NCBI RefSeq assembly: GCF_041053055.1 | Contig: NZ_CP163443.1 | Location: 7,547,001 to 7,611,000, forward strand | Length of the DNA stretch: 64,000 bases | Source of the DNA: Streptomyces sp. R41 | GTDB lineage: Bacteria; Actinomycetota; Actinomycetes; Streptomycetales; Streptomycetaceae | Direction: 5' to 3' | In this document: piece by piece, positions 1 to 60,367 of the stretch | How the letters are laid out: the number at the start of each line of letters is the position of its first letter | How positions within the stretch are numbered: position 1 is the stretch's first letter | The notes under the pieces: model-generated | Told to the model about the DNA's origin: nothing | The model's database searches: none | What the model saw: only the letters and a program-made list of their open reading frames with translations | Translations under genes and position numbers: made by a program

Positions 1-45
1 GAGTCCAGGGTGTCCACCATCCGCCGCGGACCGGACCGCGAGACA

Positions 46-59
46 GGGTCGGTCGGCCC
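46..59. promoter_or_regulatory. Candidate DevR/OsdR-type operator
   Basis: The 14-mer GGGTCGGTCGGCCC differs by one base from the near-palindrome GGGCCG-NN-CGGCCC that recurs through this island. It lies 84 bp before the first gene's start. A weaker, three-mismatch copy follows at 68-81. The assignment to a DevR-type regulator is inferred from repetition and spacing. Confidence 0.45.
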
Positions 60-143
60 ATACGTCGCACCCGACCAGCCCATGGGGCCGGCTCGCGGAT
101 CGCTGGATGCTCGAAGGGCCGAGAGGTTTCGAGGAGGCCCGAG

Positions 144-2837
144 ATGACGGACGACGACCGCGATCGCCTCACCGCGCATGCCCTGCTCGCGGACGGCACC
201 ACTGTGTGCATACGCTCCGTACGGCCCGGTGACCGCAAGCAACTGCGAGGGTTCTACGAGGAGATGTCTCCGGAGAACCTCCGGCTGCGGTTCTTCGCCG
301 CGAGCCGCCGCTCCGGCGACGTGGCCGCCGACCGGGCCTGCGCACCGCCGCGCCCCGGATACCGGGCCCTCCTCGCCGAGATTCAGGGCCGGGTGATCGG
401 CCTGGCCGAATACGAGACCGGCGACGACGCGGACATGGCCGAGATGTCGATCGCCGTGGCCGACGGGCTGCACCACCGAGGCGTCGGCACGCTCCTCGTC
501 GAGCACCTGGTCTCCGCCGCCCGCGCGGACGGCGTCACCACGTTCACGGCCGACGCGCTCAGCGAGAACTACGAAGTGCTGCGACTCTTCACCGACCTGG
601 GCCTGCGTGCCGCACGCCGATTCGAGGGCCCGGAGGTGCGCTGCACCATCGTGCTGGACGAGGACGACACCTACCTGTCGGCCGTCGAGGCGCGTGGCCG
701 GGCCGCCGATGTCGCCAGCTTGGAACCGCTGCTGCGCCCCGACGCGATCGCGGTGGTCGGTGCCGGGCGCAAGGCGGGATCGGTGGGGCGGGCCCTCTTG
801 CACCATCTGCACGAGGGCGGTTTCACCCGGCGGCTTTTCGCGGTGAACCCTCACGTCTCGTCGATCCTCGGCGTGCCGTCGTACCCGTCGGTCGGCGCGC
901 TGCCCAAGGTGCCCGATCTCGCGGTCCTCGCGATACCGGCCGCCGCACTCCCGGCCACGGCCGAGGAGTGCGGCAAGGCCGGCGTACGAGCCCTGCTCGT
1001 GGTGTCGGCCGGGCTCGACAGTGACCAGGCGGAAGCGCTCATGGCGGCATGCCGCACCTACGGTATGCGGCTGGTGGGACCCAACTGCCTGGGTATCTCC
1101 AACACGGACCCCAGGCTCCGGCTCGACGCCACCTTCGCCGCCGACCACCCGCGCCCCGGTACGGCGGGCGTGGCCGTGCAGTCCGGCGGCGTCGGCATCG
1201 CCGTGCTCGACGGGCTGTCCCGGCTCGGCATCGGCGTCTCGTCCTTCGCTTCGCTCGGTGACAAGTACGACGTCAGCGGCAACGACATGCTCCAGTGGTG
1301 GGAGAGCGACGGCCGTACCAAACTGGCCCTGCTGCACCTGGAGTCCTTCGGCAACCCGCGGGCGTTCTCCCGTACCGCCCGGCGCGTGACCCGCCGTATG
1401 CCCGTCCTGACGGTCGACGCGGGCCGTACCGAGGCCGGCCGCCGTGCCGCCGCCTCGCACACCGCGGCCGCCGCGACCCGGACCATGACCCGGCAGGCGC
1501 TGTTCACGCAGGCGGGCATCACCGCCACCCGTTCGGTGGGTGAACTCCTCGAATCCGCCGCCCTGTTGCACTCCCAGCCGCTCCCGGCCGGGACCCGCGT
1601 GGCGATCGTCACCAACGCGGGCGGTGCGGGTGTCCTCGCGGCGGACGCGTGCGCCGAGGCCGGACTGTCCCTGCCCGCCCCCACCCCCGAACTGATCGAC
1701 GACCTGCTCGCCGTGCTGCCCGAGGGCGCCGCCGTGGGCAACCCCGTCGACGCCACGGCGGCCGTGTCGGAAGAGCAGCTCAGGGACTGTGCGGACCGGC
1801 TCCTGCGGTACCAGGGCGTTGACGCCCTGCTGCTCGCCCTCGTCCCCACCGCGGTCGCCGCAGCGACCGGCGACGACCTCGTCCGGGCCCTCACCGACGG
1901 ACCCGGCCGTCGGGAACGGCCGGTCGCAGTCGTCCGGCTCGAGCAGGACCTGCCGGTCAAGCTGCTGCCCGCGCGGGAAGGCGGCACCGTCCCGTCGTAC
2001 GCCGAACCGGGCGCGGCAGCACGGGCGTTGGCGTACGCCGCCCGTCGTGCCGCCTGGCTGAACCGGCCGGCCGGCACGGTCCCGGAGCTGGCGGAGGTCG
2101 ACACGGCCCGGGCGCACACGGTCGCCGAGACCTACCTCTCCGCCCACCCGGACGGCGGCTGGCTCGACCCGCGCACCTGCGCCGAACTCCTCGCCTGCTA
2201 CGGCATTCCGCAACTGCCCTGGGCCTGGGCCGAGACCGAGGACGACGCCGTCATCGCCGCCGAACGGCTGCGTGGCCCCGACGGCCGCGTGGTCATGAAG
2301 GCCCACTGGCCCGGCCTGCTCCACAAGAGCGAACAGCACGCCGTGCACCTCGATCTCCAGGGAGACGCCCAGGTGCGTGCCGCCTTCCGGGACTTCGAGA
2401 CCCGGTTCGCCGGACTCATGACCGGAGTGGTCGTCCAGCCGCTGGCCGCGCGCGGCACCGAACTGTTCGCGGGCGTCGTCCAGGACGAAGTCTTCGGCCC
2501 GCTCGTGCTGTTCGGGCTCGGAGGCACCGCGACCGAGGTGCTGGCCGACCACGCCGCCCGACTCGCCCCGCTGACCGACCACGACGTCCACGACCTGATC
2601 ACCGCCCCGCGCTGCGCACCGCTGCTGTTCGGCGCACACGGAAGCAGGCCGGCCGATCTCGAAGGCCTGGAACAGCTCCTGTTGCGCCTGTCCCGCATGG
2701 CGAGCGACCTGCCGCAGGTCGCCGAAGCCGACTTCAACCCCGTTCTCGCGACACCGGCCGCCGTCACCGTGCTCGACGCACGCGTCCGCCTGCTGCCGCG
2801 CCGCGCCCAGGACCCCTATCTGCGCCGACTGCGCTGA
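144..2837 (+). CDS. GNAT acetyltransferase / acyl-CoA synthetase (ADP-forming) fusion, Pat-like
   Basis: This 897-residue protein begins with a GNAT acetyltransferase domain (about 10-165, acetyl-CoA loop HHRGVGTLL). A CoA-binding Rossmann domain (about 190-310), succinyl-CoA-ligase-like domains and a C-terminal ATP-grasp domain (about 670-895) follow. The family includes actinobacterial protein acetyltransferases of the Pat type with the GNAT domain in front, which acetylate acetyl-CoA synthetases and other targets. The ATG at 144 has a strong GAGGAGG ribosome site. It probably heads an operon with the next two genes, 12 and 16 bp apart. Whether the synthetase half is catalytic or only a regulatory CoA/acyl sensor cannot be read from sequence alone. 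Confidence 0.85.
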   Translation: MTDDDRDRLTAHALLADGTTVCIRSVRPGDRKQLRGFYEEMSPENLRLRFFAASRRSGDVAADRACAPPRPGYRALLAEIQGRVIGLAEYETGDDADMAEMSIAVADGLHHRGVGTLLVEHLVSAARADGVTTFTADALSENYEVLRLFTDLGLRAARRFEGPEVRCTIVLDEDDTYLSAVEARGRAADVASLEPLLRPDAIAVVGAGRKAGSVGRALLHHLHEGGFTRRLFAVNPHVSSILGVPSYPSVGALPKVPDLAVLAIPAAALPATAEECGKAGVRALLVVSAGLDSDQAEALMAACRTYGMRLVGPNCLGISNTDPRLRLDATFAADHPRPGTAGVAVQSGGVGIAVLDGLSRLGIGVSSFASLGDKYDVSGNDMLQWWESDGRTKLALLHLESFGNPRAFSRTARRVTRRMPVLTVDAGRTEAGRRAAASHTAAAATRTMTRQALFTQAGITATRSVGELLESAALLHSQPLPAGTRVAIVTNAGGAGVLAADACAEAGLSLPAPTPELIDDLLAVLPEGAAVGNPVDATAAVSEEQLRDCADRLLRYQGVDALLLALVPTAVAAATGDDLVRALTDGPGRRERPVAVVRLEQDLPVKLLPAREGGTVPSYAEPGAAARALAYAARRAAWLNRPAGTVPELAEVDTARAHTVAETYLSAHPDGGWLDPRTCAELLACYGIPQLPWAWAETEDDAVIAAERLRGPDGRVVMKAHWPGLLHKSEQHAVHLDLQGDAQVRAAFRDFETRFAGLMTGVVVQPLAARGTELFAGVVQDEVFGPLVLFGLGGTATEVLADHAARLAPLTDHDVHDLITAPRCAPLLFGAHGSRPADLEGLEQLLLRLSRMASDLPQVAEADFNPVLATPAAVTVLDARVRLLPRRAQDPYLRRLR

Positions 2838-2849
2838 GGAGGAACAGAC

Positions 2850-3581
2850 ATGAGGCAGAACAAGATCGGATCCGTGATGGCGACGGAGGTCGTCACGGCC
2901 CGCTACGGCACCCCGTTCAAGGAAGTGGCACGGCTGCTCACCGAGCACCGCATCAGCGGGCTGCCGGTGATCGACGAGGACGACAAGGTCCTCGGCGTGA
3001 TCTCCGAGACCGACCTCATGGTCCGGCAGGCGGACGTACCCGACCCCTACGAGACCAAGCGCCGCATCCGGTTCGCCGGGCTCACCCGCAGTGGCCGCCG
3101 AAAGGCCGCGAAGGCGCACGCTCGTACCGCCGGACAGCTGATGTCCGTGCCACCGGTCACCGTGCACGCCGACAACACCATCGCCGAGGCCGCCCGGACC
3201 ATGGCGGAGCACCGCGTGGAGCGGCTGCCCGTGGTGGACGAGGAGGACCGTCTCGTCGGGATCGTCACCCGCCGCGACCTGATCCAGGTCTTTCTGCAGC
3301 CGGACGACGTGATCCGCCGCGAGGTGATCGAAGAGGTACTGGTCCGCTCGCTGTGGCTGATGCCTCGGACCGTTGAGGTCTCCGTGGTCGAGGGTGTGGT
3401 CACGCTCGACGGCCACGTGGAGCGCAAGAGTGAGGCGGAGATCGCCGTCTCCATGACCAACCGCATCGACGGTGTGGTCGCGGTGGTCGACGAGCTCTCC
3501 TACCGGCAGGACGACTCGCACCTGCGGCCGGACGAGCCCGCCATGCACGGTGTGACCGAGGATTGGCTGCGAAGGCTGTGA
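2850..3581 (+). CDS. CBS domain-BON domain protein
   Basis: The 243-residue cytoplasmic protein has two CBS motifs (about 5-60 and 107-165) forming a nucleotide-binding Bateman module. A C-terminal BON domain (about 172-232, with VVTLDGHVERKSEAE) follows. Such CBS-BON proteins are common in the dormancy/stress islands of actinobacteria and are thought to sense adenine nucleotides; no catalytic residues are evident. It follows the acetyltransferase fusion by 12 bp with an AGGAGG ribosome site. A collapsed relative lies at 6905-7251. Confidence 0.85.
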   Translation: MRQNKIGSVMATEVVTARYGTPFKEVARLLTEHRISGLPVIDEDDKVLGVISETDLMVRQADVPDPYETKRRIRFAGLTRSGRRKAAKAHARTAGQLMSVPPVTVHADNTIAEAARTMAEHRVERLPVVDEEDRLVGIVTRRDLIQVFLQPDDVIRREVIEEVLVRSLWLMPRTVEVSVVEGVVTLDGHVERKSEAEIAVSMTNRIDGVVAVVDELSYRQDDSHLRPDEPAMHGVTEDWLRRL

Positions 3582-3597
3582 GGGGAGGCGCACCGCC

Positions 3598-4107
3598 GTG
3601 CTGAGCAAGGTGCTGGTTGCCTACGGAACGACAAACGGATCGACCGCGCGGATCGCCGAGACCATCGCTGAGGTCCTGCGCAAGGAGGGGGTTTCTGCCG
3701 AGGCGGTGCCCGCCGCGTCCGTGACGAACGTGGAGTCGTACGACGCCGTGGTGGTCGGCGGTGGACTGTACGCGGGGCGCTGGCACAAGGACGCCCGCCG
3801 CTTCGTCCGCCGTCACGGCCGCGCGCTGGCCCGGCGGCCCCTGTGGTTCTTCAGCAGCGGTCCGCTCGACGCCACGGCTTCGCAGCGGGACATCCCGCCC
3901 GTACCAGGCGTGAAGCGCGCCATGACCCGGCTCGACGCCGGGGAACACATCACTTTCGGGGGCTGCCTCGAAGCGGGAGCCAAGGGATTCATCGCCCAGA
4001 AGATCCTCTCCTCGGGCAAGGGCGGGGACTTCCGCGACTTCGGGCAGATCGAGGCATGGGCCGCCCGCATCGGCACCCGACTTGCCGCCGACGCACAGCA
4101 GAGCTGA
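3598..4107 (+). CDS. Flavodoxin domain protein (HemG/protoporphyrinogen-oxidase-like flavodoxin)
   Basis: The 169-residue protein starts with GTG, 16 bp behind the CBS-BON gene (ribosome site AGGGGAGG). Its N-terminus has the flavodoxin FMN-phosphate loop (GTTNGSTARIAE), and the central VVVGGGLYAGRWHKDARRF segment is typical of the flavodoxin subgroup that includes HemG-like proteins. It should bind FMN and transfer electrons. The partner is unknown; position as third gene of a stress operon suggests a role under low oxygen. Confidence 0.8.
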   Translation: MLSKVLVAYGTTNGSTARIAETIAEVLRKEGVSAEAVPAASVTNVESYDAVVVGGGLYAGRWHKDARRFVRRHGRALARRPLWFFSSGPLDATASQRDIPPVPGVKRAMTRLDAGEHITFGGCLEAGAKGFIAQKILSSGKGGDFRDFGQIEAWAARIGTRLAADAQQS

Positions 4108-4230
4108 GGGGCGGCTACATGGAGTTGCCCGCGTCCTCGGTTCCGGCCGCCGCAGGATCGCTTCCACCAGATGTGTGAACCCGAGTTCCAGCGAGCGCTG
4201 CGGTCGGCTGGGCCTCAGACAGTACGGTGA

Positions 4231-6030
<1,800 letters not shown>

Positions 6031-6075
6031 CCGGCGAAGCCTGCGGCCACGGCCGCAGTCCGGGGCCGGGAGGAC

Positions 6076-6777
6076 TCAGCGCGTCGGGTGGTCGGTGGCG
6101 TCGGATTGTTCGAGATGGCTGGCCAGTACCGCAGCCTGGACGCGGCGCTGGACGCCCAGTTTGGCCAGCAACCGGGAAATGTGGTTCTTCACTGTCTTCT
6201 CGGACAAGTAGAGCTTCTTGCCGATCTCCCGGTTGGTGAGTCCGTCGCCGATCAGCGCGAGGATGTCGCGCTCGCGGGGCGACAGACTGGCGAGCTCGGG
6301 CGCCAGGGCCGGTGCCTCGGCGGGATCCGCGCGCAGGGAGCGCATCAGCCGGGCGGTCGTCGTGGGGTCCAGCATCGACTGACCGGAAGCGACCGTGCGT
6401 ACCGCCGAGACCAGGTCGGAGCCCTTGATCTGTTTGAGCACATAGCCCGAGGCCCCGGCCATGATCGCGTCGAGCAGCGCTTCCTCGTCGTCGAAAGACG
6501 TCAGCATCAGACAGGCCAGCTCCGGCATCTGGCTGCGCAGTTCCCGGCATACGCTGATGCCGTCACCGTCCGGCAGGCGGACATCGAGGACGGCCACATG
6601 CGGACGCAGCGCCGGGCCGCGCACCAGCGCGTGCTCGACGCTGTCGGCGTCGCCGACCACCGAGATGTCCGGCTCGGCGTCCAGGAGGTCCGTGAGACCG
6701 CGGCGTACGACCTCGTGGTCGTCCAGCAGAAAGACCCGGATGGGGTTCTGTTCCGAAAACGTACGCGCCTCGGCCAT
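6076..6777 (-). CDS. NarL/LuxR-family response regulator, DosR/DevR-like
   Basis: This 233-residue regulator has a receiver domain (about 12-128) with phosphorylation Asp65 in AVLDVRLP, acidic pocket DD19-20 and Lys115. Its C-terminal LuxR helix-turn-helix (about 163-225) contains LSPRERDIL and TNREIGKKLYLSEKTVKNHI. An upstream in-frame ATG exists at 6837, but AAGGGG precedes the ATG at 6777, which is chosen. The gene converges on the DosS-like kinase with 45 bp between stops, and they probably form a two-component pair. In Mycobacterium and in S. coelicolor (OsdR) such regulators activate dormancy genes of the kinds seen on both sides here. Confidence 0.9.
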   Translation of the reverse strand: MAEARTFSEQNPIRVFLLDDHEVVRRGLTDLLDAEPDISVVGDADSVEHALVRGPALRPHVAVLDVRLPDGDGISVCRELRSQMPELACLMLTSFDDEEALLDAIMAGASGYVLKQIKGSDLVSAVRTVASGQSMLDPTTTARLMRSLRADPAEAPALAPELASLSPRERDILALIGDGLTNREIGKKLYLSEKTVKNHISRLLAKLGVQRRVQAAVLASHLEQSDATDHPTR

Positions 6778-6858
6778 GACGACCCCTTGTTCACTGGTGA
6801 CTACGGACCACGAGCTGCCTGTGACGACGATCATCACCCTGCGGGACCGAATGCACTA

Positions 6859-6872
6859 GGGCCGACCGGCCC
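6859..6872. promoter_or_regulatory. Candidate DevR/OsdR-type operator (perfect copy)
   Basis: GGGCCGACCGGCCC is a perfect 6-2-6 inverted repeat centred 88 bp upstream of the response regulator start, so autoregulation is plausible. It is the best match to the motif shared across this island. Confidence 0.5.
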
Positions 6873-6904
6873 AACCGGAGCGCTGTTGTCCGTTCGGCCG
6901 CGGG

Positions 6905-7251
6905 TCAGGGCTGCGGCAGGCGAACCGGGCCTGTCAGCTCGAACTCCACGTCCACCACACCTTCGACGGCCCGCACCAGGCGCGCGGCCACGGGCACCAA
7001 GGAGGTGTCCCTGACCCGGCCGCCGAGTGTGACGACGCCCTCCCGCACCTGCACACGGACAGGAGACAGCGGAGCACGGAACAGGTACGACACGACTTCC
7101 CTGTGGACCTCCTCGGCGATGTCCTCGTCGTCCCTGAGGAACACCTTGAGGAGATCACCGCGGCTGACGAGGCCTTGAAGTCGGCTCCACGGCCGACGGC
7201 TGCGACGGTGTGGGTCATCACATCGCTCACGATGTGCGGGCTCCCATGCAC
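6905..7251 (-). pseudogene. CBS-BON protein collapsed by an internal deletion
   Basis: From a GTG at 7251 (ribosome site AGGGAG) the reading frame gives the usual start of a CBS protein (SPHIVSDVMTHTVAAVGRGADFK). It then jumps near 7166-7178 into another frame that holds the last piece of a second CBS motif (LVSRGDLLKVFLRDD) and a complete BON domain to 6905. Most of CBS1 and CBS2, roughly 100 residues by comparison with the family, is missing, and the junction is out of frame. A 79-codon ORF with ATG 7144 could still express the BON domain alone. It lies 28 bp downstream of the cyclic-nucleotide-binding gene. Confidence 0.8.
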
Positions 7252-7279
7252 GGTGGCTCCCTGGTGGATTCCGAAGCGG

Positions 7280-7744
7280 TCAGCGAGCGCTTCCGCTGCC
7301 GTACGGTGCGTACAGGTCCAGCAGCCGGGTCCTGGCCGATCGCAGCCGGCGGGCGACGATGTCTCCCGCCCACTGGGCCACTGCCATTCCCAGTGCGGGA
7401 TCGGCCTGGCACATGGCCCGTACCACGTCGGCGTCGAACTCGTACGCGCGCACTGGGCTGGTGGCCTCGGCGCCCAGGTGCCAGGTGTGCGGTCCGAACA
7501 GCCAGGACCAGCCGATGAGTTCGTTGTGCCCGAGGGTCTCGATGACGGCCGCGCGGCGGCCGGGCACATGGATGTCGAGGACCACCGTGCCGGTGCGGAT
7601 GATCCAGAACCGGTCCGCGCGCCGTCCCTCCTCGAACAGGCGGGTTCCCTGGGGGAAGGACACCTCCCGCGCGATGCCCATCAGTCGCTCGCTGTGCTCG
7701 GCGGGCAGCGCTCGCAGCATGCTGAAAGTGGGGGAAGCGTTCAT
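7280..7744 (-). CDS. Cyclic nucleotide-binding domain protein (Crp family, no HTH)
   Basis: The 154-residue protein is essentially one cNMP-binding beta-roll (about 8-125; FPQGTRLFEEG, IIRTGTVVL, LGHNELIGWSWLF) and a short C-terminal helix, with no DNA-binding winged helix. A longer in-frame start at 7882 exists. The ATG at 7744 has AGGA/AGAGG upstream, begins where family similarity begins, and leaves room for the operator at 7814-7827. Such short proteins recur beside CBS and universal-stress genes in actinobacterial dormancy islands. The ligand is unknown: the arginine that contacts phosphate in true cAMP receptors is not obvious. Confidence 0.75.
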   Translation of the reverse strand: MNASPTFSMLRALPAEHSERLMGIAREVSFPQGTRLFEEGRRADRFWIIRTGTVVLDIHVPGRRAAVIETLGHNELIGWSWLFGPHTWHLGAEATSPVRAYEFDADVVRAMCQADPALGMAVAQWAGDIVARRLRSARTRLLDLYAPYGSGSAR

Positions 7745-7813
7745 GATCCTGGCCTCTTCCTGGAGCGCGGTTCTGCCAACTCCAATCTCTTCTCGACGCC
7801 CTGCTTCCACCAT

Positions 7814-7827
7814 GGGCCACCCGGCCC
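7814..7827. promoter_or_regulatory. Candidate DevR/OsdR-type operator
   Basis: GGGCCACCCGGCCC has one mismatch to the GGGCCG-NN-CGGCCC motif. It lies 70 bp upstream of the cyclic-nucleotide-binding gene start at 7744, and about 125 bp before the divergent universal-stress stub. Confidence 0.4.
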
Positions 7828-7950
7828 CGAGGAGGGGCCGCATGGCAACGGACAGGGCATGCGGCCGGACCCTTTCCCGCACCGTGCGGGTGGGATGCCG
7901 CCCGTGCCGTGGACGCCGGGGCCGCCTGGGCCGAAGGGCGAGCGACAGCC

Positions 7951-8085
7951 ATGACCACCCGTCCGATGACCGTCGGCGTGGACTGCTCGCTCATCGCCTT
8001 ACGGGCGCTGGACCGGGCCGCCGAGGATACGGTGTTGCGCGGCGCCGTGCACGATGCGGGTCATGTGGACTTGCGTCCCCGCTGA
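7951..8085 (+). pseudogene. Universal stress protein remnant (N-terminal stub)
   Basis: A 44-codon ORF starts MTTRPMTVGVDCS and continues LRALDRAAEDTVLRGA, which matches the first beta-alpha unit of UspA-family proteins (normally VGVDGS...ALDWAA...LRGA). After RGAVHDAG the family sequence is lost and a stop follows at 8083-8085; full-length members are about 140 or 290 residues. The glycine of VDGS is a cysteine here. The 3' end overlaps the convergent membrane-protein gene by 25 bp. Read as the relic of a deleted stress gene. Confidence 0.65.
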
Positions 8086-8645
8086 GCTCCGAGCTGGTCC
8101 CACTCACGGCCCCATTGGGCGTAGCGCCGCTGATCGAGCCGCCATTGCGTGACGCGGCCGGCGGCGAACGCGAGGCCGGCGAAGGCGACTGCGGCCCCCG
8201 CGCCGAGCGTGCCCGCCTCGAAGGCCGCCGCGGAGGCGGTCGGCGGCTCGGTGGTGGGGCGGCCCCCGTTGTTCAGCCAGATGACGACCTTCGATCCGGC
8301 CCTGTGCCCGGAGTCCACCAGGGCCCGGCCGGTATGGGTGGAGCCGTCCGACGTCGTCCAGCGGACCATCGCCCTGACCCGGTCATGCGTCGTGCCCTCG
8401 GTCGTCGGCGCGATCCGTACGGTGTTCTCGAGCAGGACGGCTGGGACCGAGTGCCGCTCGTTGCGCAGCTGCTCGAAGGACTCGTCGGCGGCATGAGCTG
8501 CCATCACGCCGACCAGGGTGCCCCCCAACGCGATGACGGTCCAGACGACCAGAATGATCCAGGCCTCGACGATGTCGTCGTGCCGACGCAACGGATTGCT
8601 CCGCCATCGCCACAGCAGCTGCCTCGCACCCTTCGTCCTGCGCAT
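8061..8645 (-). CDS. Rv1733c-family membrane protein
   Basis: This 194-residue protein has two transmembrane helices (about 28-50 and 140-162) flanking an extracytoplasmic loop with DGSTHTGRALVDSGHRAGSKVVIWLNNGG. That arrangement and the N-terminal RWRSNPLRRHDDIVEAW motif are characteristic of the Rv1733c family, a DosR-regulon membrane protein of unknown function in M. tuberculosis. Candidate DevR-type sites lie 62 and 118 bp upstream. The start is an ATG with GGAGGTG upstream. Confidence 0.8.
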   Translation of the reverse strand: MRRTKGARQLLWRWRSNPLRRHDDIVEAWIILVVWTVIALGGTLVGVMAAHAADESFEQLRNERHSVPAVLLENTVRIAPTTEGTTHDRVRAMVRWTTSDGSTHTGRALVDSGHRAGSKVVIWLNNGGRPTTEPPTASAAAFEAGTLGAGAAVAFAGLAFAAGRVTQWRLDQRRYAQWGREWDQLGAQRGRKST

Positions 8646-8706
8646 CGCACTGCACCTCCGCTCATCAAGGACAGCAACGTGACATTTCGGGAGTGAGTGA
8701 CGGCAG

Positions 8707-8720
8707 GGGCCGACCGGACG
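8707..8720. promoter_or_regulatory. Candidate DevR/OsdR-type operator (two mismatches)
   Basis: GGGCCGACCGGACG retains a perfect left arm and a degenerate right arm. It is 62 bp upstream of the Rv1733c-like gene. Confidence 0.35.
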
Positions 8721-8762
8721 GCATCACTGGGCCGTCCCGCACCCACACACGCGCGCGGCATT

Positions 8763-8776
8763 GGGCCGTCCAGCCC
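8763..8776. promoter_or_regulatory. Candidate DevR/OsdR-type operator
   Basis: GGGCCGTCCAGCCC has one mismatch to the island motif. It is 118 bp upstream of the Rv1733c-like gene, 56 bp from the preceding copy. Confidence 0.4.
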
Positions 8777-8858
8777 GAGTCGGTGAGGAGCGGTCGGCTC
8801 GGTGCGCTCACGCACGGACGTCGGTTCCTGCGAACGGGCCTGCTCGGTCCGGCAATGG

Positions 8859-8872
8859 GCGCCGACCGGCCC
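8859..8872. promoter_or_regulatory. Candidate DevR/OsdR-type operator
   Basis: GCGCCGACCGGCCC has one mismatch to the motif and sits inside a wider inverted repeat, ATGGGC-8-GCCCAT (8855-8874). It is about 190 bp upstream of the alcohol dehydrogenase start. Confidence 0.4.
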
Positions 8873-9063
8873 ATGTGGACAGCATCCGCCACGGTCAGGC
8901 TGGACATAAAAGGTCACTCCGCGCGCGAGGAAGCCGCCCAGCGGTACCCGAGCACAGCCGGACCGGTGATTCCGGCCGGAGCGGAGGGGCGCTCCTGCAG
9001 GAGGCCGATTGCTCATCGTTGTCCCTTACGACCGGCATCGGTCAGGCCCAGGAAGGGATCGTC

Positions 9064-10134
9064 ATGAAGGCACTCGTATTCAACGGCTCCGGAAAGGCCG
9101 CATGGGAGGACGTCGCCGACCCCGGTATCCAGGATGCCACCGACGCGATCGTCCGCGTCGACGCCGTCACCATCTGCGGAACCGACCTCCACATCCTCAA
9201 GGGCGATGTCCCGGAGGTACGCCCAGGTACCGTGCTCGGGCACGAAGCCGTCGGGGAGATCGTCGAGGTGGGCAGCGACGTCCGCACGGTCCGACCCGGC
9301 GATCGTGTCCTGGTCTCGTGCATCACGGCGTGCGGCCGTTGCCGGTTCTGCCGCGAAGGCACGTACGGGCAGTGCCGCGACGGCGGGGGCTGGATCCTCG
9401 GCCACCTGATCGACGGCACACAGGCCGAGTACGTGCGCGTGCCGCACGCCGACCTGTCCACGCATCTGCTGCCCGGCGCGTTGGAGAGCAAGGACGCCGT
9501 GCTGCTCGCCGACATCTTCCCCACCGCCTACGAGGTGGGTGTGCTGAACGGGCGGGTGCGGCCCGGAGACACTGTCGTCGTGGTCGGTGCGGGGCCCATC
9601 GGCCTGGCCGCGATCGTCACGGCGCGGCTCTACACCCCGGAGAAGATCATCGCCGTGGACCTCGCACCCGCCCGGCTGGATGCCGCCAAACAATTTGGTG
9701 CCGACGCCGTGGCAGTGGCTGGCGACGAGGCCGAGGAGTTGGCTGCCGACCTCACGCAGGGCCTTGGAGCCGACGTGGTCATCGAAGCGGTCGGGGTGCC
9801 GGAGAGCTTCGAGATGTGTACGCGCATGGTGCGGCCCGGCGGGCACGTGGCCAATGTCGGCGTGCACGGCAGGCCCGCGACACTCCACCTCGAAGACCTG
9901 TGGATCAAGAACGTGACCATCACCACCGGTCTGGTCGACACGCACTCCACTCCGACCCTGCTGCGCATGATGGCCGCCGGACACCTGCCCGTGTCGTCCA
10001 TGGTCACCCACACCTTCCCGCTGGACGCCATGGAGGAGGCGTACGACGTCTTCTCGAGGGCCGCCGACACCGGCGCGCTCAAGGTCGTCCTCGGCGGGCC
10101 GCAGCACGACGTCCTTACGGTCAGGACGCCCTGA
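9064..10134 (+). CDS. Zinc-dependent alcohol dehydrogenase (MDR family)
   Basis: The 356-residue medium-chain dehydrogenase has catalytic-zinc ligands in TICGTD and GHE, and a four-cysteine structural zinc site (CGRCRFCREGTYGQC). It has an NAD(P) Rossmann motif GAGPIG. It should oxidise an alcohol or reduce an aldehyde; the substrate cannot be read from sequence. The ATG at 9064 has an AGGAAGGGA ribosome site, and the long ORF upstream of it is non-coding. Twenty bp separate it from the next gene, suggesting an operon. Its place in the DevR-like island suggests redox balancing under low oxygen. Confidence 0.87.
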   Translation: MKALVFNGSGKAAWEDVADPGIQDATDAIVRVDAVTICGTDLHILKGDVPEVRPGTVLGHEAVGEIVEVGSDVRTVRPGDRVLVSCITACGRCRFCREGTYGQCRDGGGWILGHLIDGTQAEYVRVPHADLSTHLLPGALESKDAVLLADIFPTAYEVGVLNGRVRPGDTVVVVGAGPIGLAAIVTARLYTPEKIIAVDLAPARLDAAKQFGADAVAVAGDEAEELAADLTQGLGADVVIEAVGVPESFEMCTRMVRPGGHVANVGVHGRPATLHLEDLWIKNVTITTGLVDTHSTPTLLRMMAAGHLPVSSMVTHTFPLDAMEEAYDVFSRAADTGALKVVLGGPQHDVLTVRTP

Positions 10135-10153
10135 CAGGAAGAAGCGAAGGATC

Positions 10154-10840
10154 ATGTCCGAGCAGACAGCGCCGCGCGCGGCGTCCACCACGGCGGACAG
10201 CGCAAAAGGCGACATCGGGCGTCGCATCGCCAGGCGACGCGAGGAACTTGGGCTGACCCGGGAGGAGGCGGCCGCACGGGCGGGCACGGCTCCTGGCTAC
10301 GTCCAGTACCTGGAAGAACGGTCCACCGCGATGCCTGGGACCGCTGCCCTCATCCGGCTCGCCGACGCGCTGGAGACCAGTGTGGCCGCCCTGCGTGGCG
10401 GTGATGCCGACCTGCCACCAGGTATCGGTCGGGCGGCCCGCCACCCCGAGCTCGTCGAACTCAGCGCCGAGGAGTGCCGGGCACGGCTCTCGCGGCACGG
10501 CATCGGAAGGCTCGCGATGGACACGCCGGACGGGCCGATCATCGTGCCCCTCAACTACAGCGTCATCGATGGCGCGATCACCTTCAGGACGGCACCCGAC
10601 GCCGTTCCTGCGACAGCCGTCGGGGCACACGTCGCCTTCGAGGTCGACCACATTGACGAGGCGCTCAGCCAGGGCTGGAGCGTGCTCGTACGCGGCCGTG
10701 CCCGAGCCGTGAGGGAGCGCGACGCCGTGGAACGGCTGAAGGCGCTCGCGTACAGCGGTCCATGGGCAGGCGGCGAGCGTGACATGTGGGTGCGTATCGA
10801 GCCCGACAGCACCACCGGCCGCCGGATCGCGGTGCGCTGA
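10154..10840 (+). CDS. XRE-type HTH fused to pyridoxamine 5'-phosphate oxidase-fold domain
   Basis: The 228-residue protein joins an N-terminal Cro/XRE helix-turn-helix (about 20-76; LTREEAAARAGTAPGYVQYLE) to a flavin/F420-binding split-barrel domain (about 95-225). The latter resembles actinobacterial pyridoxamine-5'-phosphate-oxidase-like proteins such as DosR-regulon Rv2004c/Rv3129-type stress proteins. The combination suggests a redox- or flavin-responsive transcription factor. It shares an operon with the dehydrogenase. Confidence 0.8.
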   Translation: MSEQTAPRAASTTADSAKGDIGRRIARRREELGLTREEAAARAGTAPGYVQYLEERSTAMPGTAALIRLADALETSVAALRGGDADLPPGIGRAARHPELVELSAEECRARLSRHGIGRLAMDTPDGPIIVPLNYSVIDGAITFRTAPDAVPATAVGAHVAFEVDHIDEALSQGWSVLVRGRARAVRERDAVERLKALAYSGPWAGGERDMWVRIEPDSTTGRRIAVR

Positions 10841-10864
10841 CGCCGGTCACCCGCAGGGTCCGAC

Positions 10865-10887
10865 GGGCGGCCAGTCTCCGGCCGCCC
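10865..10887 (+). terminator. Probable hairpin terminator
   Basis: GGGCGGCC-7-GGCCGCCC forms a perfect 8-bp stem 25 bp after the XRE-oxidase fusion gene. There is no U-tract, as is usual in Streptomyces. Confidence 0.5.
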
Positions 10888-10888
10888 T

Positions 10889-10902
10889 GGACCGATGGGC
10901 CC
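10889..10902. promoter_or_regulatory. Candidate DevR/OsdR-type operator (two mismatches)
   Basis: GGACCGATGGGCCC has two mismatches to the island motif. It lies directly after the terminator hairpin and 71 bp before the ATG at 10973. Confidence 0.35.
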
Positions 10903-10972
10903 TCGCCTCCGTCCCTGGCCGCTCCACAGGATGAAAGACGTACCGCTGTACCGCGTGAAAGTGACCTCGGTG

Positions 10973-11412
10973 ATGAATCCCAACGACGACTTCCATGAGC
11001 TCGACCGGCAAGAGTGCCTCCGTCTGCTGGAGGGGGCACCGATCGGCCGCATCGTCCACACGCGCCACGCCTTGCCCGCGGTCCTGCCCGCCAACTTCTG
11101 CCTGGACAGGGTTCCGCGGTACTGCTGCGCACCTCCGCGGACTCCGAGCTGGCCTCCGCCGTCGATGGTGTGGTGGTCGCCTTCGAAGCCGACGAGGTGG
11201 ACGTGACGACCCACTCCGGTTGGAGCGTCGTGGTGACTGGCTGCGCCAGGGTGGTGACCGACCCCGCCGAGCACGCCCGGTTGTCCCTGAGCGGTCCGCG
11301 CCCGTGGGTGGCTGTACGTGAGGAAGTCTTCATCCGCATCGAGTCCGAGTTGGTCACCGGCCGTCAACTCGTCGGAGAACGCACGCTCTACGGGGCCGAC
11401 CTCACCTCCTGA
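10973..11412 (+). pseudogene. Pyridoxamine 5'-phosphate oxidase-fold protein, frameshifted
   Basis: One frame reads MNPNDDFHELDRQECLRLL...VLPANFCLD, the N-terminal half of a split-barrel flavin-binding protein. The second half (GSAVLLRTSADSELA...TGRQLVGERTLYG) continues in another frame from about 11108 to the stop at 11410-11412. A single missing base in the G-rich stretch at 11105-11112 explains the break. If restored the protein would be about 146 residues, the usual family length. An upstream in-frame ATG at 10931 is possible. Either a young pseudogene or a sequencing error. Confidence 0.75.
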
Positions 11413-13652: not shown

Positions 13653-13668
13653 GCATTGCGCGGTGACA

Positions 13669-13890
13669 ACCGGAGCGCTGTCTCGCGTCCGGTCGCTCCG
13701 GTGCGACCGGAGTGCTGTCTCGCGGACCGTGGCTCCGGTGCGACCGGAGCGCTGTCTCGCGGACCGTGGCTCCGGTGCGACCGGAGTGCTGTCTCGCGGG
13801 CCGTGGCTCCGGTGCGACCGGAGTGCTGTCCCGCGGGCCGTGGCTCCGGTGCGACCGGGGCGCTGTCTCGCGTGCCGTCCCGCCGGTGCG
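13669..13890. repeat. Six tandem 37-bp repeats
   Basis: Six contiguous units begin at 13669, 13706, 13743, 13780, 13817 and 13854. Units 2-5 differ by one to three bases; the outer two are more diverged. Each unit junction reads CTCCGGTGCGACCGGAG, a perfect 7-bp stem with a 3-base loop, so the array is a chain of hairpins. The period is not a multiple of three and there are no spacers, so it is neither a coding repeat nor a CRISPR array. It fills most of the 316-bp gap between the disrupted permease and the OsmC gene. Confidence 0.9.
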
Positions 13891-57929: not shown

Positions 57930-60367
57930 GCGCGCCCGTCCACGGCACCTGGGAGCCGCTGCCCGCGGCCCGCTGGGAGGACGCCTTCCTGAGCGGGAAC
58001 GGCACGCACGGCGTCATGGTGTTCGGCGATCCGAACGGCGACCGGGTCATCGTCAACCACCACAGCCTGGTCCGGCCGAACGGCAGCGGGCGCGCGCGTC
58101 CGCCCGCTCTCGCCGACCGACTCGACGACGTACAGGACCGGTTGCTGGCAGGGGACACCACGGCGGGGGAGGCCTTCACCGATGGGCGACCGCTGCTCTG
58201 GGTGCCGCCCTTCCACCCCGCCTTCCAGGTGCGGCTGCGCCGCCCGGCCGCGGAATGGCGCTCGTACCGGCGCGAGGTCGACTTCACCACCGGCGTCGTC
58301 AGCGCCGAGTGCGGCAGCTGGCGCAGCGAGGTCTTCGTCTCACGGGCCGACGACGTCGTCGTCCAGTACGTGACCGAGTCCGATCTCACGGTCGACGTGA
58401 CCCTCGACCCCCGACTGCCGGGCGTCCCCGCCGACTTGACGGTGGGACACAGCGCCGTCCTCACCCCCGAGGGCGCCCTCCTCACGCTGCGCGCCCGCTA
58501 TCCGGGCAGCGACCTGGCGTACACGGGGGTGACGCTCGTCGTGGTCACGGGCGGCCGGACCCGGACCGCCCTGCCCGGCGTACGCGTCGAGGGCGCGCGC
58601 TCGCTGCTTCTGCTCACGCGCGTACGGCGGCACGCGGGCGAACTGGACGCGCTGACCGAGGCCCGCGAGCTGCGCGCCCTGCTGCCCCAGGACGACAGTC
58701 AATCCGCCGGCCGGCTCGAAGCCCATGCTGAAGCCGAAGCCGAAGCCGAAGCCGAAGCCGAAGCCGAAGCCGACGCCGACGCCGAAGCCGAAGCCGAAGC
58801 CGAAGCCGAAGCCGAAGCCGAAGCCGACGCCGACGCCGAAGCCGAAGCCGACGCCGATGCCGCAGCTGAAGCTGAAGCCGAAGCTGAAGCCCAAGCCGAA
58901 CCCGACGCCGAAGCCGACGCCGAACCCGACACCGACAAAGACGCGTACACCCACCTCCTCTCCCGCCACACCGCCCTCCACCGGCCCGCCTACCTCCGCA
59001 CCGCTCTCGACCTGCACGCCGACGCCGTCGAACGCGCCCTCCCTGGCTCGGACTTGGTCCACCGCTCCAAAAGCCCCGCCCTCCTGGAGCGGCTTTTCGC
59101 GGCGGGCCGCTACCACCTGCTGTCGTCCGCCGGGACGCTGCCGCCACGCCTGACCGGGCTGTGGACCGGCGACTGGGACACCGCCTGGTCCGGGGCGTTC
59201 ACCACGGACGCCAACCTCAACCTTCAGACGGCGTCGGCCGCCGCGGCCGCGCTCCCTGAGGTCACGGAGGCCCATGCCGCCCTGATCCACGGCCAGTTGC
59301 CGCACTGGCGCGACAACGCCCGGGCGATCTTCGGCGCGCGGGGCGTCGTGGCCCCCGCGCACACCGACGGCGAGTCCGGGCACATCTACCACCTCAGTCG
59401 CGAGTACCCCCTGCACGTGTGGACCGCGGGCGCCGACTGGCTCCTGAAGCCCCTCGTGGACCACGACGAGACCCGCGGCGCACGCGACCCGCGCCTTGGA
59501 GCGGCCCTCGCCGAAGTGGCGTACTTCTACGAGGACTTCCTCACCCGCACCGACGACAACGGCCATCTCGTGATCGTGCCGTCGTACTCCCCGGAGAACC
59601 GCCCCGCGAACGCGAGCTGGGTCACCCTCAATGCCGCCATGGACCTCTCCGCGGCCCGCCACGCCCTGCGCACGGCGGCCGACTACCACCCAGGACCCGA
59701 CGCCGAACGCTGGCGCGAGCTCGCCGACCGGCTGCCGCCGCACCGCGTCAACGCCGATGGCGCGCTGGCCGAATGGGCCTGGCCCGGTCTCGACGACACC
59801 TACGACCACCGCCATCTCAGCCACCTCTACGGCGTCTGGCCGCTCGACGAGATCACCCCCTATGACACCCCGGACCTCGCCGCGGCGGCCCATCGCGCGC
59901 TCGAACTGCGCGGCGCCGAGAACGACTCCGCGCACGGCCACCTCCACCACGCCCTGGTGGCGGCCCGGCTGAGGGACGGCGAACGGGTGGCGGCGGCCCT
60001 GGACAACGTCCTGGCCGGGAACTTCTTCCACGTCTCCCTGATGAGCGGGCACTACCCCAACCGGCACGTCTACAACGCGGACGCCGCCCACACGCTGCCC
60101 GCCGTGCTGATCGAGATGCTCGTCCAGTCGACGCCCGACCGGCTGGTCCTGCTGCCCGCGCTGCCGACGGCGTACCCCACGGGCCGACTACGGGGCGTCC
60201 GCACGCGGTTCGGCGCGGAGATCGACCTCACCTGGAGCCCGCGAGAAGCCACCGCGGTCATACGCCCCACCCGTACCCACCGCATCGAGATCCGGACTTC
60301 CACCGGCGCCGAACCGCTCGACCTCGTCGCCGGAGAAGACCACGTCCTCAGCCTGGGGGCGTGGTAA
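57926..60367 (+). CDS. GH95-family (alpha-L-fucosidase-like) protein with Ala-Glu repeat insert
   Basis: The 813-residue protein has the GH95 N-terminal beta domain ([29 protein letters not shown]). Its (alpha/alpha)6 barrel contains [24 protein letters not shown] and [12 protein letters not shown]. Family members hydrolyse alpha-1,2-fucose or alpha-L-galactose, fitting fucosylated xyloglucan. The family is divergent here, so specificity is uncertain. At about 268-337 a low-complexity run of Ala-Glu/Ala-Asp pairs encoded by a hexamer repeat separates the two domains. No signal peptide is present. Confidence 0.8.
58727..58936 (+). repeat. GCCGAA hexanucleotide repeat tract inside the GH95 gene
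   Basis: About 35 near-identical hexamers (GCCGAA, with GCCGAC variants) run in frame, encoding alternating Ala-Glu and Ala-Asp. Indels of whole units would keep the frame, so the tract can vary in length without killing the enzyme. Confidence 0.9.

Follow-up and report, generated by a model that had tools for sequence, protein, structure and literature searches.

Near-palindromic OsdR boxes of an osdR island in Streptomyces sp. R41 and a proposed layout of OsdR promoters

Regulator and kinase of the island

The first 11.5 kb of a 64,000-nucleotide stretch of the Streptomyces sp. R41 chromosome (contig NZ_CP163443.1, positions 7,547,001 to 7,611,000; the window) form the right part of an osdR island, which extends over about 7536–7558.5 kb of the chromosome. 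The island holds a response regulator and a histidine kinase of the family to which the DevR/DosR system of Mycobacterium tuberculosis also belongs, and it carries recurrent copies of a 14-bp near-palindrome, GGGCCG-NN-CGGCCC. From their sequence and setting, these copies are very probably the binding boxes of the regulator, OsdR (DevR/DosR-type). Positions below are those of the window unless given for the chromosome.

6079 to 6777, minus strand: osdR/devR-type response regulator with a receiver domain and a LuxR-type DNA-binding helix-turn-helix (ATG at 6777, stop codon 6076–6078; Pfam Response_reg and GerE)
4285 to 6030, plus strand: DevS/DosT-type GAF-GAF histidine kinase (Pfam GAF, HisKA_3 and HATPase_c)

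The best PDB match of the regulator is M. tuberculosis DevR (3c3w, E 1.2e-72). The alignment, over residues 14–227, conserves both the phospho-acceptor region (VAVLDVRLPDG) and the recognition helix (EKTVKN), identifying the protein as a DevR homologue with both of these elements. The PDB matches of the kinase are DevS GAF chains and 2vzw, the latter of which we take to be DosT; the kinase sequence HHPPM reads YHPPM in the DevS chains and HHPPM in 2vzw, and its GAF histidine presumably has a role in haem binding. Judged by sequence, the protein is a DevS/DosT-type GAF sensor kinase of the haem type, with haem binding putative.

The box in front of osdR lies 81 bp from the start codon, that is at about 80 bp and at the very distance published for SCO0204 in the part of the Streptomyces coelicolor study by Urem et al. 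that we draw on (2016; PMC5069765). The gene caller's longer osdR start, 6834, is upstream of the transcription start predicted from the −10 element described below.

In the same part of that study, osdR and osdK form an operon in S. coelicolor, whereas here the kinase gene is convergent with osdR, in the window as well as in a second locus at 710 kb. Among 80 OsdR loci of relatives, the best kinase match (59–82% identical, at distances of up to about 9.5 kb) is convergent with osdR in 33, divergent in 14 and on the same strand in 3, none of these within 1 kb; in the remaining 30 no kinase match lies in the sequence analysed around osdR. We do not take the operon arrangement as a defining feature of the regulon.

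Motif, clustering and conservation of the boxes

All seven near-palindromes listed in the first-pass annotation are present, each with zero to two mismatches, and two further intergenic 14-mers with two mismatches occur at 7919 and, at a distance of 22 bp from site 8707, at 8729. We scored the sites with a matrix made from 25 distinct published S. coelicolor 16-mers (PMC5069765); because the matrix comes from published sites, this test is independent of the window. The 16-mer boxes begin 1 bp before the 14-mers, so that the 14-mer at 46 corresponds to box 45–60 and that at 6859 to box 6858–6873.

6858 to 6873, minus strand: OsdR box of osdR; 14-mer at 6859, no mismatch; matrix score 17.2
45 to 60, no strand assigned: OsdR box between a divergent acs/GNAT gene and a usp-like gene; 14-mer at 46, one mismatch; score 11.2
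7813 to 7828, minus strand: weak OsdR box of a Crp-like gene; 14-mer at 7814, one mismatch; score 5.3
8706 to 8721, minus strand: proximal weak box of a small membrane-type protein gene (8061 to 8645; the 8645 gene); 14-mer at 8707, two mismatches; score 7.7
8728 to 8743, minus strand: second weak box, 22 bp from that at 8706, absent from the first list; score 6.7
8762 to 8777, no strand assigned: further box; 14-mer at 8763, one mismatch; score 9.5
8858 to 8873, plus strand: OsdR box of a zinc-dependent dehydrogenase gene; 14-mer at 8859, one mismatch; score 10.5
10888 to 10903, plus strand: OsdR box of a second pyridoxamine-oxidase-type gene; 14-mer at 10889, two mismatches; score 11.4

Five of the seven listed sites score at least 9 bits, the top score in the window belongs to the osdR box, and boxes that fit the published matrix stand in front of target genes. 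The near-palindrome is the OsdR consensus, AGGGCCGATCGGCCCT, which Urem et al. derived from the osdR promoters of 12 species, and the proposal of a DevR/OsdR-type motif and regulon is supported. In the portion of their paper used here, the S. coelicolor regulon comprises 43 predicted OsdR sites and a target table, with gel shifts, mutated probes and promoter probing as experimental evidence. The likeness to our locus takes in the binding motif, the position of the box before osdR and, in the target table, the gene types usp, Crp-like, zinc dehydrogenase and pyridoxamine oxidase. DevSR also controls narG2 in S. coelicolor, where nitric oxide (NO) affects the kinase, according to the part consulted of a further study (PMC4766573). 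The idea of motif and regulon is already in print (PMC5069765), which limits the novelty of our reading; what is new is the promoter layout, not the motif. Overall, the system is a known one, correctly recognised here in a further genome, and the layout is added to it.

The distances that had been claimed between sites and genes hold (at most about 120 bp, and about 190 bp for the dehydrogenase), with the start of the gene behind site 10889 placed by its homologues at 10973 rather than at the ATG at 10931. The claim that the one perfect copy belongs to the regulator's promoter is true of the window, where no other exact copy occurs; the island has two more, immediately left of the window (chromosome 7537273 and 7539948).

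How often the bare pattern occurs says little by itself. With up to two mismatches, the window contains 49 matches compared with 40.56 ± 6.75 in shuffled sequences, 11 of 100 of which reach 49. A genome-wide count likewise finds no enrichment in the 10.46 Mb chromosome, with 21 exact copies against 20 of the reversed pattern and, at up to one mismatch, 570 matches against 624. We accordingly rejected pattern enrichment as evidence, since the counts equal those of the shuffled or reversed controls in window and genome alike. The excess over chance lies in position, that is intergenic and near the regulator. Of the 15 pattern matches within the first 11.5 kb, 9 fall between genes (1,760 intergenic bp), whereas the remainder of the window has 2 such cases among 34 matches (6,894 intergenic bp; Fisher p = 2e-5); the 11.5 kb limit was chosen post hoc with the sites already seen, and the gene calls come from a home-made codon-usage caller. 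The published matrix gives the same picture for the entire island (7536000–7558500, 22.5 kb), where 10 intergenic matches score at least 9 and 0.43 are expected over its 3,264 intergenic positions (Poisson p 4e-11). The expectation rests on 26 such matches at 195,386 intergenic positions in 54 regions (1.08 Mb) that were not chosen by any site. Between 12001 and 64000 of the window, no intergenic match reaches 9 and four coding ones do.

The boxes recur before homologous genes in the relatives. Homologous promoters were scanned (for osdR, within 250 bp); for the counts at a threshold of 11, permuted matrices give 0.3–5%. A box of at least 11 precedes 71 of 81 osdR homologues (80 from the relatives' loci and one from the second R41 locus), all 5 acs homologues, 12 of 16 for the dehydrogenase, 15 of 17 for DoxX, 27 of 35 for the usp gene at chromosome 7540046 and 9 of 12 for SulP. 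For the Crp-like gene the figure is 19 of 52 (26 of 52 at a threshold of 9), and some of the listed boxes share the position seen here, −65 to −68. The single homologue of the 8645 gene that passed the filter has a box; for the usp gene at chromosome 7546974 no homologue passed the filter among the 80 loci. Across these loci, 354 intergenic matches score at least 11, compared with 14.6 for column-permuted matrices, and coding matches at this level number 57, although coding positions are about five times as many as intergenic ones.

A number of observations weigh against assigning the boxes, or all of the genes, to OsdR. Besides the control-like counts of the bare pattern, the sites at 7814 and 8707 stay below 9 on the published matrix, and the limits of the island and the thresholds were set after the data had been seen. 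The window's kinase gene has no noteworthy box upstream, and its homologues have one of at least 11 in 12 of 39 cases (15 of 39 at 9). Own boxes are similarly sparse before the homologues of several other genes of the island: at both thresholds 1 of 4 for the CBS gene at 2850, 0 of 5 for the flavodoxin-like gene and 2 of 9 for the second pyridoxamine-oxidase-type gene, and, at 11 and 9 respectively, 1 and 2 of 10 for the helix-turn-helix (HTH) pyridoxamine-oxidase gene, 2 and 3 of 21 for PPK2, and 10 and 11 of 51 for the CBS gene left of the window. A further limit on the reading is that three genes inside the regulon island are decayed (CBS-BON, usp and pyridoxamine-oxidase type).

The boxes might instead be used mainly by one of two other OsdR-like regulators of the genome, or be shared by all three. 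We regard this as unlikely, yet it is the strongest of the alternatives. The second regulator/kinase pair, at 710 kb, is 77% (regulator) and 65% (kinase) identical to that of the window; at 5.409 Mb lies a third regulator, with 61% identity. All three regulators keep EKT(V/I)KN in the recognition helix, the 710 kb regulator is itself preceded by boxes of the same matrix, and Urem et al., citing earlier work, mention SCO3818 as another regulator cognate to the kinase (PMC5069765, in the part used). Against this, the window's regulator resides inside the island and its own box is well conserved; all the same, the three may share the boxes. We also asked whether the additional regulators are special and rejected the idea: 57 of 61 Streptomyces genomes, R41 included, have at least one match at E <= 1e-70, and 33 of the 61 have two to five.

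Proposed layout of OsdR promoters

Upon examination of the relatives' boxes, we found second boxes to lie at a narrow range of distances. Around 299 distinct sites scoring at least 12, neighbors of at least 6 peak at 20, 21 and 22 bp (27, 33 and 27 cases), whereas spacings of 24–50 bp average 1.9 each.

When 92 distinct contexts downstream of the boxes were searched for a shared motif, a single element emerged; it reads roughly SANGMT with GGA behind it and lies 37–39 bp from where the 16-mer starts. Its likelihood gain is 233.5, compared with 46–54 in eight shuffled sets and 78 on the upstream side, and it has A at the second position and T at the last with frequencies of 0.90 and 0.95. TANNNT, considered as an alternative downstream signal, was rejected as nearly absent from the contexts. 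At 708 oriented intergenic sites, the element peaks at 37–38 bp when no second box lies downstream and at 58–60 bp when one does. The osdR promoters dominate this signal (47 of 64 have the element at 37–38), and we therefore removed them together with similar contexts. In the non-redundant remainder, 28 of 388 sites without a second box have the element at 37–38 (1.4 expected) and 15 of 140 with a second box have it at 58–60 (0.7 expected); the crossed cells hold 4 and 2 (Fisher p 3e-7), and the element is found in several gene families. Since its position shifts with a second downstream box, it is the proximal box that fixes the place of the element, where the element is present.

Over intergenic positions, taken per orientation, the 99% and 95% quantiles of the element score are 7.8 and 4.6. 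An element of at least 7.8 at the single-box offset accompanies 5 of the 10 island sites scoring at least 9 and none of 26 control intergenic sites (Fisher p 7e-4); the window's genome was left out of the element fit, though orthologous promoters were part of it. The predicted −10 hexamers of the window are as follows.

6830 to 6835, minus strand: GATGAT of osdR; element score 12.6, offset 37
16 to 21, minus strand: GATGGT toward the usp-like gene; score 9.8, +38 from box 45
106 to 111, plus strand: GATGCT toward acs/GNAT; score 11.0, +60 (tandem position)
7784 to 7789, minus strand: GAGATT of the Crp-like gene; score 5.3, slightly over the 95% quantile
8896 to 8901, plus strand: CAGGCT of the dehydrogenase gene; score 11.3, offset 37
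10927 to 10932, plus strand: CAGGAT downstream of the box at 10888; score 10.4

By element score, osdR, the dehydrogenase and the pyridoxamine oxidase are strong, and the Crp-like gene and the 8645 gene (4.8, at +39 from the box at 8706) are weak; box 8762 lacks the element in both directions. If the −10 hexamer at 8896 is right, the 190 bp between box and dehydrogenase gene would be mostly leader. To the left of the window, the SulP box (chromosome 7537272) has an element of 11.0, the usp box (7539947) is accompanied by another box at +20 and by an element of 10.2 at +58, and the DoxX box (7539134) has no noteworthy −10 element.

These data make it fairly probable, in our estimation, that OsdR promoters follow a grammar of a proximal box, a degenerate −10 hexamer (SANGMT) 37–38 bp from its start and optional further boxes 20–22 bp upstream, in which one box can serve a divergent gene pair (usp and acs at site 45). 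This would be the layout of DevR promoters despite a different core, and it would help to tell working boxes from chance copies.

The grammar has its own difficulties. The element was first noticed by eye in printed contexts and fitted afterwards, and the real set was given 30 restarts, the shuffled sets 12. It is a minority pattern: in the relatives, 108 of 457 intergenic boxes of at least 9 carry an element of at least 7.8, and toward the gene at offsets 36–40 an element of at least 4.6 was found for 1 of 10 SulP, 0 of 17 DoxX, 0 of 32 usp and 0 of 5 acs promoters. Nor is it fully specific. Four of eight strong coding-region boxes (at least 16) in relatives carry it too, perhaps as a result of miscalled genes, and when 1.541 Mb of the R41 genome were scanned for box and element together, the 18 rows obtained comprised 5 from the island, one in front of the second osdR and 12 from other places, with 8 of these 12 inside called coding sequence.

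Instead of a −10 hexamer, SANGMT could be a sequence bound by another factor, or a conserved part of the leader. It lacks the usual first-position T of such hexamers, and most boxes are without it. By contrast, it retains the A at the second and the T at the last position, it lies where a −10 would be expected if the −35 were at the box edge (a 17 bp spacer), and it moves by one box spacing together with the proximal box. We judge this alternative improbable and favor the −10 assignment. If the boxes were GC-rich palindromes arising by chance in a genome of very high G+C content, the control-like pattern counts would be accounted for, but this reading is hardly credible given the intergenic clustering at the regulator, the recurrence before homologous genes, the 20–22 bp spacing and the fixed −10 offset.

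Sequence statistics show the positions of boxes and elements; regulation as such we infer from the published S. coelicolor work. As suggested by their families, the GAF kinase would read the oxygen or NO state, and phosphorylated OsdR would bind as dimers. The spacing would bring the promoter-proximal box into contact with the −35 position; the −10 element, where seen, lies 37–38 bp from where this box begins. With the proximal box at −35 and the −10 at a fixed distance, OsdR would therefore recruit RNA polymerase to a promoter whose own elements are poor, and a second box 20–22 bp upstream would permit cooperative binding.

The mycobacterial core is GGGACT..AGTCCC, whereas that of the boxes here is GGGCCG..CGGCCC, and the −10-like element here is GC-rich. 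In the published descriptions of DevR promoters, as far as we draw on them, the sites are closely packed and cooperatively bound, the proximal one overlapping the −35 (PMC3029386), and tandem sites are bound cooperatively (PMC4973870). By analogy, the OsdR loci of Streptomyces may be DevR-like in the close packing of boxes and in a proximal box at the predicted −35: the spacing and element statistics of the relatives fit such a design, but the element accompanies a minority of the boxes (108 of 457). The comparison is with these published descriptions. In the literature examined, which does not extend to subscription journals, we met no account of how tandem OsdR boxes are spaced or of an offset between box and −10. 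In the main text of PMC5069765, as available, 'tandem', 'spacing' and 'helical' have no occurrence and 'cooperativ' has one, in the reference list.

If true, the grammar helps to separate functional boxes from the chance matches that abound in GC-rich genomes. A rule of box plus −10 should sharpen target prediction, given that the bare motif is as frequent as its controls and that none of the 26 control boxes has an element of at least 7.8. With our reading, the island joins a known dormancy-type regulon, and start-site predictions result.

Further genes and loci

The remaining genes of the island's right part are listed here.

144 to 2837, plus strand: GNAT and ADP-forming acyl-CoA synthetase (acs; Pfam)
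2850 to 3581, plus strand: CBS-CBS-BON protein (Pfam)
3598 to 4107, plus strand: flavodoxin-like protein (Pfam)
6905 to 7290, minus strand: decayed CBS-BON gene with internal loss (residues 10–39 and 143–229 of the 231 of the L024 homologue, in different frames)
7280 to 7744, minus strand: cNMP-binding (cyclic nucleotide), Crp-like protein (Pfam PF00027)
7951 to 8085, plus strand: usp remnant (aligns with residues 1–31 of the 282-residue L024 homologue)
8061 to 8645, minus strand: small membrane-type protein, without a Pfam match
9064 to 10134, plus strand: zinc-dependent dehydrogenase (Pfam ADH_N and ADH_zinc_N)
10154 to 10840, plus strand: HTH and pyridoxamine-phosphate-oxidase-type protein (Pfam), without a box of its own here
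10973 to 11412, plus strand: second pyridoxamine-oxidase-type gene, frame broken (two pieces in different frames that match the same homologues)

The box at 45 is flanked by the acs/GNAT start at 144 (plus strand) and by that of the usp-like gene at chromosome 7546974 (minus strand), left of the window. Its placement suggests that it may serve two divergent genes, one of them (usp-like) beyond the window; toward acs, the second box at +22 is poor (−2.4). The CBS-CBS-BON and flavodoxin-like genes probably belong to the acs/GNAT operon. The 8645 gene is presumably Rv1733c-like. The frame break at 10973–11412 may reflect a decayed gene, and a sequencing error is also possible. The part of the island left of the window contains usp genes, a CBS protein, SulP, DoxX, a dehydrogenase and PPK2, all named by eye from their sequences.

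Elsewhere on the chromosome, the convergent pair of the 710 kb locus (708774–712897) adjoins a usp-like gene and has boxes at 709850 and 710045. The top-scoring box in the stretches of the R41 genome examined (20.6) lies in 690549–690964 and adjoins a usp-like gene; a kinase fragment beside it is 83% identical over 54 residues, and the locus is perhaps what remains of another copy of the system. A strong pair of boxes 21 bp apart (1450730 and 1450751; 1450730–1450766) is situated just downstream of a gene at 1450801–1451379 that resembles the 8645 gene by eye; no convincing gene lies between the two, and the pair has no clear target gene. The site at 562304 has a −10 element, yet points at no gene. 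In the window itself, two tandem repeats occur: a 37-bp unit in 6.2 copies with 90% matches at 13661–13890, and a 6-bp unit, CGAAGC, in 35.5 copies at 58717–58929.

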